From positions 1 to 55,720 of the forward strand of contig JAAFGT010000045.1 in assembly GCA_010365215.1 (NCBI GenBank): a DNA stretch of 55,720 bases, read 5' to 3'. Numbering within the stretch: position 1 is the stretch's first letter; every line of letters begins with the position of its first letter. This DNA is from Acidipila sp. (GTDB lineage: Bacteria; Acidobacteriota; Terriglobia; Acidiferrales; UBA7541). Of the stretch, positions 22,443-50,487 are shown piece by piece. Both the position numbers and the translations under genes were made by a program. The notes beneath the pieces were generated by a model, which was given only the letters and a program-made list of their open reading frames with translations, did no database searches and was not told where the DNA came from.

Positions 22443-22919
22443 ATGCCATCGCGACCCGGCCAACCGCCTGCCCTTGATCCCGCGTTTGCGTGCTTTCGCC
22501 TGCGCACGGGCAGATCGGGGATTCAGGGCACGGGAGTTTTTGCGCGCGAGCCAATCCCTGCGCGGCGGAAAGTGATCGAATATACCGGCGAAAAGATAAT
22601 TATGCGGGAAGCCATCCGACGACTCAGAGGCGGGCACCACCGGTACCTTTTTGGTTTAAGCAAGCGTTGGTGCCTGGACGCGCGGATCTCCGGCAGCGGC
22701 GCTGAGTATGTGAATCACAGCTGCGATCCCAATCTTTTTTCATGGCGGGTGAAGGGACACATCCTGCTGATGAGCCGGAGAAGGATCAGCGTCGGCGAAG
22801 AGCTGACCTTAGATTACAACTATGCAGCGGACAGGCGGCTCGCACCTTGCAACTGCAACTCCCCGCGATGCCGCGGCACGATCAACATAAAACCCGGAAG
22901 ATCACAGAGCCGAAGGTGA
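22443..22919 (+). CDS. SET-domain protein lysine methyltransferase with post-SET zinc site
   Basis: A 158-residue protein that is almost entirely a SET domain. Motif I, SGIQGTGVFA (residues 25-34), and EYTGE (46-50) form the S-adenosylmethionine side; NHSCDPN (91-97) and GEELTLDYNY (118-127) are the pseudoknot motifs with the catalytic Tyr. The C-terminus has CNC at 136-138 and Cys143 (CxCxxxxC), the post-SET zinc site completed in eukaryotic enzymes by the Cys of NHSC, which is present here (Cys94). Expected activity is methylation of protein lysines. It faces a 30-residue Lys-rich protein gene 176 bases away, across a strong hairpin. Bacterial SET proteins are known, but the substrate here is unproven. 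The gene lacks a Shine-Dalgarno and probably makes a leaderless mRNA. Confidence 0.88.
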   Translation: MPSRPGQPPALDPAFACFRLRTGRSGIQGTGVFAREPIPARRKVIEYTGEKIIMREAIRRLRGGHHRYLFGLSKRWCLDARISGSGAEYVNHSCDPNLFSWRVKGHILLMSRRRISVGEELTLDYNYAADRRLAPCNCNSPRCRGTINIKPGRSQSRR

Positions 22920-22980
22920 AGGGGCAGGCCGAGCGGGGAGAACAGGTTTCCGGTATACCGAAGCGGAATCGCTGAGAGGC

Positions 22981-23034
22981 CTTCGTTTAAGCAGCGAGGG
23001 CCGCCCGGTTAGGAACGGCCCTCGTCTTACGAAG
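22981..23034. terminator. Nested hairpin between convergent SET and Lys-rich genes
   Basis: CGAGGGCCG (22995-23003) pairs perfectly with CGGCCCTCG (23016-23024) around a 12-base loop; outside this, CTTCGT (22981-22986) pairs with ACGAAG (23029-23034). Next to it is a perfect 12-base palindrome CGAGCTAGCTCG (23036-23047). It lies between two genes transcribed toward each other, so a bidirectional terminator is the simplest reading. No T-run is present; a structured RNA is also possible. Confidence 0.6.
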
Positions 23035-23095
23035 CCGAGCTAGCTCGCGGAACCGGCGCTCATCAGCAACCTCCCGCGAGCCTTCCAAGTCGACT

Positions 23096-23188
23096 CTACT
23101 TTGAGGCCCTGGTAAGTTTCATCGCGAGCATGGACTTGGTGCTCTTTAGCTTCTTGCCCGACTTTAAAGTCTTCTTCTTTGCGGCCAT
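23096..23188 (-). CDS. Tiny lysine-rich basic protein (30 residues)
   Basis: Starts MAAKKKTLKSGKKLKS and ends MKLTRASK: 30 residues with about ten Lys, no acidic residue, and alternating K-K/S-T blocks. GGAGG lies 7 bases before the ATG, a near-ideal ribosome site that supports translation. The reading frame is short and could occur by chance, but the ribosome site, the extreme composition and a second protein of the same style at 50404 argue for a real gene. Such peptides resemble bacterial histone-H1-like tails or ribosome-associated basic peptides. It faces the SET methyltransferase gene; a Lys-rich partner for a lysine methyltransferase is an attractive but untested link. No membrane segment. 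Confidence 0.6.
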   Translation of the reverse strand: MAAKKKTLKSGKKLKSTKSMLAMKLTRASK

Positions 23189-23352
23189 CTGGTTGCCTCC
23201 GTATCTATTTTGGAATCGCCCCCAAGGGCGCTGCTTGTTAAGAAGGCAAGTCTCTCACCAAACCGGTTCCGTGTCGCGCTAATCTCAAACCGCAGAAACT
23301 CTGAGACTTATTGGCGGCTGTGGGCAATGCGGCAGAAGCATCCAAACCCGCA

Positions 23353-23692: not shown

Positions 23693-24730
23693 ATGAAATG
23701 CCTAAATTGCGGCACAGAGATGATGAACAATCAAGTAAGCACAAAGAAGGATCTCATCTCTTACGACATGTGCGAAAAGTGCGGAAGCCTGTGGTTAGAT
23801 GCAGGTGCGTTGGACAAGATGGCGTTCCAAGTGAAAGGAAGCATTGAATACTGCTCACGAGAGCCGGTCGCAGAAACCGAGAAGCAGGCGCGAAAGTGCT
23901 CGCGATGCGACGACTCCAATCTGTACCAGGTACGTTTCCTGAACTCGTCGGATATTATCCTCCACCATTGCAGGAACTGCGGCGGTTTCTGGCTTGATGG
24001 TGGCGAACTCGACTTAATCGACAAAGACCTGGCAAAAATCATGCCTGTCAGCGGAAAAGGCTTTTCAGATTTCGTGAACGATGTGCATGTCCCCTATTGG
24101 TATAAGCGGATTAAAAGAAAAAGCAGCGAGACAGACACGCAGGTGGAAGTTCTCCCGATCAAGGGTGCTAAGCAAACCAAGACCACCGCGGACCAGTGCC
24201 CGGGATGCGGGAATTCTCTTACCGAATACACCGTGTTCTCGATGAGATTTGAAGGCTGTCCGACCTGCAAAGGAATTTGGTTGTTCAAGGACGAATTGCG
24301 GACACTTAAAAATAAAGTCGAGCACGGGTCGATACGCTGGCTTAACGATGAAATCAACAGCATCGAGAAAACCAGCGCAATGACGACCAAGCGTATTTGC
24401 GTGAAATGCAAGAACGTCAAAATGGTTTCCGTGCTCTTCGGGAAATCGTCGATTGTTATAGATTGGTGCCCGCAGTGTCACGGAACCTGGCTCGACAAGG
24501 ACGCATTCGACTCTGTCACCGAGTATTTGAAGCACGAATCGCAGAGCATGCATTCCAAGGAGATCGAGAAAAAGGCTCTTGAAGAGGTGAAGCTGCTCTG
24601 GAGTGGCGGGCCGGAAAGCAGGTATGAAGAGCTTTTGGATATCAAAGCTACCATCTCCGCTCTAATCAACACCACCATCTTTGAGCATCCGGCACTAGCG
24701 ATGCTTTGCATGGGCACTCCGCGTCTTTGA
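23693..24730 (+). CDS. Protein with four zf-TFIIB-type zinc ribbons
   Basis: A 345-residue protein built of four copies of a zinc ribbon: Cys3/6 with 27/30 (ending CGSLWLDAGAL), Cys69/72 with 93/96 (CGGFWLDGGEL), Cys169/172 with 189/192 (CKGIWLFKDEL) and Cys236/239 with 259/262 (CHGTWLDKDAF). Each has CxxC, about 20 residues, then CxxCxGxWLD, the pattern of the zf-TFIIB family usually found once in small bacterial proteins. Linkers are polar and charged; no enzyme domain, signal or membrane segment is seen. Nucleic-acid or protein binding is likely. The coding sequence is visibly richer in A/T and uses AAA/AAG and ATT codons more than its neighbours, suggesting acquisition from another genome. 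Confidence 0.8.
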   Translation: MKCLNCGTEMMNNQVSTKKDLISYDMCEKCGSLWLDAGALDKMAFQVKGSIEYCSREPVAETEKQARKCSRCDDSNLYQVRFLNSSDIILHHCRNCGGFWLDGGELDLIDKDLAKIMPVSGKGFSDFVNDVHVPYWYKRIKRKSSETDTQVEVLPIKGAKQTKTTADQCPGCGNSLTEYTVFSMRFEGCPTCKGIWLFKDELRTLKNKVEHGSIRWLNDEINSIEKTSAMTTKRICVKCKNVKMVSVLFGKSSIVIDWCPQCHGTWLDKDAFDSVTEYLKHESQSMHSKEIEKKALEEVKLLWSGGPESRYEELLDIKATISALINTTIFEHPALAMLCMGTPRL

Positions 24731-50403: not shown

Positions 50404-50487
50404 ATGCCGGCAAAGAAGCCCAAGAAAAGCACCACTCGCAAGAAGGGAAAAAAAGTAGGCGCTTACAAGAAACTAGGCACGAAGTAG
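50404..50487 (+). CDS. Tiny lysine-rich basic protein (27 residues)
   Basis: Begins MPAKKPKKSTTRKKGKK and ends YKKLGTK: 27 residues, about 12 Lys, no acidic residue. AGGAG lies 9 bases before the ATG (CAGGAGAATTCCAC). It sits 36 bases after accA on the same strand and may ride on the dnaE-accA transcript. The style is the same as the peptide opposite the SET gene at 23096 (AKK runs and S/T-K blocks), though I see no alignable identity. Such proteins could bind nucleic acids, ribosomes or lipid phosphates. Short length makes this a probable but unproven gene. Confidence 0.6.
   Translation: MPAKKPKKSTTRKKGKKVGAYKKLGTK

Follow-up and report, generated by a model that had tools for sequence, protein, structure and literature searches.

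SET-domain enzymes are known as chromatin modifiers, and to our knowledge few SET proteins of free-living bacteria have a known natural substrate. The described methyltransferases closest to the protein considered here (MLL/KMT2; the bacterial NUE, cpnSET, RomA/LegAS4 and BtSET; the archaeal Go1-SET) share with it the same fold, as predicted, along with the catalytic motifs and the post-SET cysteines. Their known substrates are histones or chromatin proteins, whereas the protein considered here is partnered, by genome position, with a short peptide that belongs to an export-type cluster. The target of Go1-SET is likewise a basic protein from the same cell, the chromatin protein MC1-alpha (PMC3980110).

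Several systems that make RiPPs form a second point of comparison. The epipeptide (EpeP/YydH), daptide and pearlin (TglG) systems have short precursors, an M50 membrane protease and an RRE-like domain in common with the Acidobacteriota cluster described below, and M50 proteases, which cut or export RiPPs, act in epipeptides and pearlins (PMC10885120). Unlike these systems, the Acidobacteriota cluster combines the RRE-like, M50 and HlyD parts in one protein with additional HlyD and GAF-HlyD partners, its peptides are lysine-rich, and a SET gene is associated with it as a tailoring candidate. YcaO-TfuA thioamidation systems have one point of contact with the SET-peptide pairs, at G197:C50, where the pair lies directly beside a YcaO gene (1e-74) and a TfuA gene (5e-48); the best scores of these two genes are to McrA-glycine thioamidation models, below the cut-off, and the window lacks both genes. 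A literature search covering one library returned no paper joining the SET domain and RiPPs.

The window, the whole 55,720-nucleotide stretch of DNA analysed here, corresponds to contig C6 in an assembly of 4.1 Mb. The features under study are the following.

22443..22919, + strand: SET-domain lysine methyltransferase gene with post-SET cysteines (158 aa; Pfam SET 3e-21; invariant catalytic and Cys residues; predicted MLL-type fold)
22995..23024, no strand: inverted repeat between the convergent genes (9-bp perfect stem, 12-nt loop), possibly a two-way terminator
23096..23188, - strand: lysine-rich peptide gene, 30 aa, MAKKxLKKGKKLxxTKPL family (profile E 9e-7; relatives in genomes G006, G032, G197, G259, G277, G280 and others)
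23196..23200, - strand: Shine-Dalgarno GGAGG of the peptide gene, read from the sequence, 7 nt from the ATG

SET is the sole Pfam domain of the protein encoded at 22443-22919(+), and its score of 76 bits lies above the curated cut-off of 22.4 bits. The NHxC and ELTxDY motifs, the post-SET CxCx4C and the cysteine of NHSC are all present, and an alignment of 17 homologues showed that N91, H92, C94, D124 and Y125 are invariant, as are the post-SET residues C136, C138 and C143, with S93 nearly so. The earlier note had read the catalytic motifs and the post-SET cysteines, together with Cys94, from the sequence, and the alignment bears this out. The AlphaFold model (pLDDT 82) found its best PDB matches among MLL/KMT2 SET domains (Foldseek E 1e-11 to MLL3), and a sequence profile likewise placed MLL-type SET domains at the top of the PDB, at 2e-36. 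On sequence and predicted fold, the protein is assigned to the SET-domain methyltransferase superfamily. No clear Shine-Dalgarno sequence precedes the gene. A viral origin was rejected, with a single distant viral match. Elsewhere, two loci (L010 and L011) hold long open reading frames in which an ATP-grasp-like part, recognised by eye, accompanies a C-terminal SET domain, and SET proteins of other Terriglobia families (L056, L009, L066, L071 and L064) carry Lys/Arg-rich N- or C-terminal extensions.

The peptide gene runs convergently towards the SET gene across a gap of 176 bp. Its product, MAAKKKTLKSGKKLKSTKSMLAMKLTRASK, contains 10 lysines among 30 residues, and the lysine content and ribosome site claimed for it earlier were both found. 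When every open reading frame of the window was compared with the peptide family profile, 23096-23188(-) was the sole significant match, the next scoring 1.1. The window peptide matched no Pfam or NCBIfam family, nucleoid protein families included. The stretch separating the two genes had been described as a long hairpin; it contains only the modest 9-bp stem listed above, and its folding energy does not exceed that of shuffled sequences (z -0.34), so that the hairpin was dropped as an unusual structure. A second lysine-rich mini-ORF lies in the window at 50404-50487(+) (MPAKKPKKSTTRKKGKKVGAYKKLGTK, with an AGGAG ribosome site); it did not match the peptide profile, and a search of 40 genomes yielded no relative. 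Just past the peptide gene, at 23693-24730(+), the window encodes a 345-aa protein with four TFIIB-type zinc ribbons.

A search for the peptide in 60 related genomes gave one weak match (E 0.58), located in G006, where a SET gene lies 136 bp away. Direct reading of the SET loci identified the peptide MAKKALKKGKKLSGTKTLGSLRMKQ in G006 and two similar peptides in G032, and a profile search then revealed several copies per genome, with up to 13 matches in G006. The family consensus is MAK..LKKGKKL..TKPL, followed by tails that vary in both length and sequence. A comparison of 41 copies with distinct nucleotide sequences showed that the core lysines are conserved and the codons vary, with differences most common at third positions (0.49, compared with 0.35 and 0.22). 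In its conserved segment, its variable tails and its codon-level conservation the family resembles RiPP precursors, short peptides with a conserved leader and a variable core. Two further loci carry related forms: at L092:6332-6571 a lysine-rich peptide segment continues into a longer tail that resembles the end of Hcp (T6SS_HCP E 0.062), and at L169:3428-4175, in G233, lysine-rich peptides of divergent type occur four in tandem.

To assess co-occurrence, 89 genomes of the window's bacterial family were compared. The peptide was found in 12, a full SET gene in 10 and both in eight (Fisher p 3e-7), such that the peptide is present in 8 of the 10 genomes with SET and in 4 of the 79 others. A peptide of the family was found 49-176 bp away from nine SET genes: in the window, at G006:C300, G032:C4, G277:C122, G197:C50 and G280:C16, twice at G280:C11, and in G283. 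Both genes are on one strand in seven of the nine pairs; the G283 pair is divergent, and two divergent pairs lie at G280:C11. The two genes adjoin in several dissimilar arrangements, on either strand. With the G283 pair left out, eight SET genes had a peptide within 1 kb where 0.04 would be expected. The probability is optimistic, since G032 and G277 share a single locus by inheritance and the profile had been seeded with G006, G032 and G197 among others; the G277 pair and the three G280 pairs came from a genome-wide search and are free of seed bias. Taken together, these data strongly support a link between enzyme and peptide, as judged by conservation. The earlier note had drawn this link from a single locus and had proposed adjacency and co-occurrence as the check; the frame is indeed conserved next to SET homologues, and the link withstands the refuting condition that the note had set on this point.

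The association is not universal. SET genes of the same family at G000:C49, G006:C72, G018:C7, G197:C71 and G280:C27, and in G279 and G269, have no peptide nearby, and across the class SET occurs in 125 of 250 genomes, most of which lack the peptide. In a phylogenetic tree the family SET proteins, with the exception of the G283 and G280:C27 proteins, group in a supported, long-branched clade, and the SET proteins of another Terriglobia family form a separate group. No lysine-rich peptide was found within 1.5 kb of 25 SET loci from that other family. Since the only neighbour recurring at these loci is a malate-dehydrogenase-like gene (11 of 25), no alternative SET substrate emerged.

The peptides also occur in a larger cluster with a repeated arrangement, in which genes for a GAF-HlyD protein, an HlyD adaptor and an M50 protein of about 715 aa are convergent with the peptides and an NtrC-like regulator. 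A scan of 84,980 species, each represented by one genome, identified 22 close clusters with at least 48% identity. All of them come from Acidobacteriota-type records, with Candidatus Acidiferrales among them. Most clusters whose protease-regulator gap lies on the contig have lysine-rich peptides in this gap, some of them of the divergent KKLEKKVPL and KAQTL forms. Distant M50 homologues (from Gemmatimonadota, Zixibacteria and others) had no SET gene or family peptide nearby. SET lies inside the cluster in 3 of the 22, located between protease and peptides in G032 and G277 and between regulator and peptides in G280. In the window's own genome the peptide-NtrC-M50 cluster is on contig C64, away from the SET-peptide pair, which is an orphan locus.

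The M50 protein joins an M50-like membrane protease to an N-terminal domain and to an HlyD part. An invariant HEFGH, an LNPLxKxDGYY motif and the HlyD domains give it the features expected of a leader protease or exporter. It is nearest to RiPP proteases, with matches to the daptide intramembrane metalloprotease model (9e-54) and to epipeptide YydH/LiaK (1e-9); at 183 bits it falls below the cut-off of 300 of the daptide model NF041824, and the system was not classed as a daptide system. The N-terminal domain is predicted to fold as three strands followed by three helices, and the top seven PDB matches of the model (E 5e-3 to 2e-2) are RREs of PqqD and lasso B1 type, whose structures mostly include a leader peptide. 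Its sequence match to PqqD is weak (0.018 in Pfam, 5.5e-4 in NCBIfam), and the domain is described here as RRE/PqqD-like on evidence of predicted fold, which is not proof.

These results favour a model, to which we assign a probability of roughly 0.6, in which the SET protein acts as a tailoring enzyme that methylates lysines in the precursor peptides of a RiPP-like export system. The model draws on gene content, conservation, adjacency, co-occurrence and predicted folds, and from these we infer methylation, leader recognition, cleavage, export and a final activity. An NtrC-type sigma-54 regulator would turn the peptide genes on, and the SET enzyme would then use SAM to methylate lysines of the basic segment or of the tail. 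The conserved, lysine-rich segment, serving as leader or scaffold, would be bound by the RRE-like domain of the M50-HlyD membrane protein, after which the M50 site would cut the peptide and the HlyD parts would carry it across the envelope. Because most clusters lack SET and many SET genes, including many of other Terriglobia families, have no such peptide nearby, SET is not an obligatory part of the cluster; its tailoring role may be optional, the enzyme having been drawn from a pool of older bacterial SET proteins. The broader proposal is more tentative, at somewhat under even odds: that these loci define a new RiPP-like class in Acidobacteriota, with an RRE fused to an M50-HlyD protease-exporter and SET-tailored lysine-rich precursors, and that a SET enzyme is here, for the first time, dedicated to small peptides destined for export, in a niche outside chromatin. 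The conserved genomic partner makes the substrate of a bacterial SET protein a directly testable question, and the pairing suggests a role for a histone-modifying fold in the chemistry of peptide natural products as well. The analysis further brings out a candidate cluster for peptide maturation and export in uncultured Acidobacteriota from soil, apparently one not described before.

The strongest competitor, though an unlikely one, is that SET has an older substrate of its own, such as a ribosomal, regulatory or envelope protein, and that its nearness to the peptide reflects shared regulation or neighbourhood inheritance. The wide occurrence of SET in genomes without the peptide is in keeping with this, as is the fact that about half of the family SET genes do not adjoin one. 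Against it stand the recurrence of adjacency in such varied arrangements, the two divergent pairs at G280:C11 included, and the restriction of the fast-evolving family clade almost entirely to peptide-bearing genomes. Still less probable is the nucleoid-methylation module of the earlier note, in which a DNA binder resembling a histone tail would be methylated by SET to tune chromosome packing. The lysine content of the peptide is suggestive in this respect, SET precedents do act on histones and on archaeal MC1-alpha (PMC3980110), and some SET proteins of other Terriglobia families have Lys/Arg-rich tails of their own. The module was nevertheless not supported: the peptide matches no nucleoid protein family, its copies are many and variable-tailed within a genome, and they sit in clusters with the RRE-like/M50/HlyD membrane protein and the NtrC-type regulator. 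It is this shared clustering that leads us to read the peptides as substrates of maturation and export, a reading that replaces the nucleoid one with moderate confidence.

Two further explanations concern the peptide itself. It might regulate SET as a pseudo-substrate inhibitor or an activator instead of serving as its substrate, and the fact that each orphan SET has a single peptide beside it, in many cases immediately upstream, would suit such a role; this seems very improbable given the many peptide copies that have no SET and lie in clusters with their own protease. That the mini-ORF is a chance reading frame, as its shortness and the lack of an identical copy elsewhere might suggest, can be given almost no weight in view of the profile match and the ribosome site, and was rejected on its conservation in relatives and the third-position bias among the 41 copies.

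SET is not the only enzyme gene found beside peptides of this kind. In G165 a TauD-like oxygenase, in place of SET, lies among the peptides; the TauD-family oxygenase gene at L094:5012-5782, located between lysine-rich peptide genes, perhaps encodes another tailoring enzyme.
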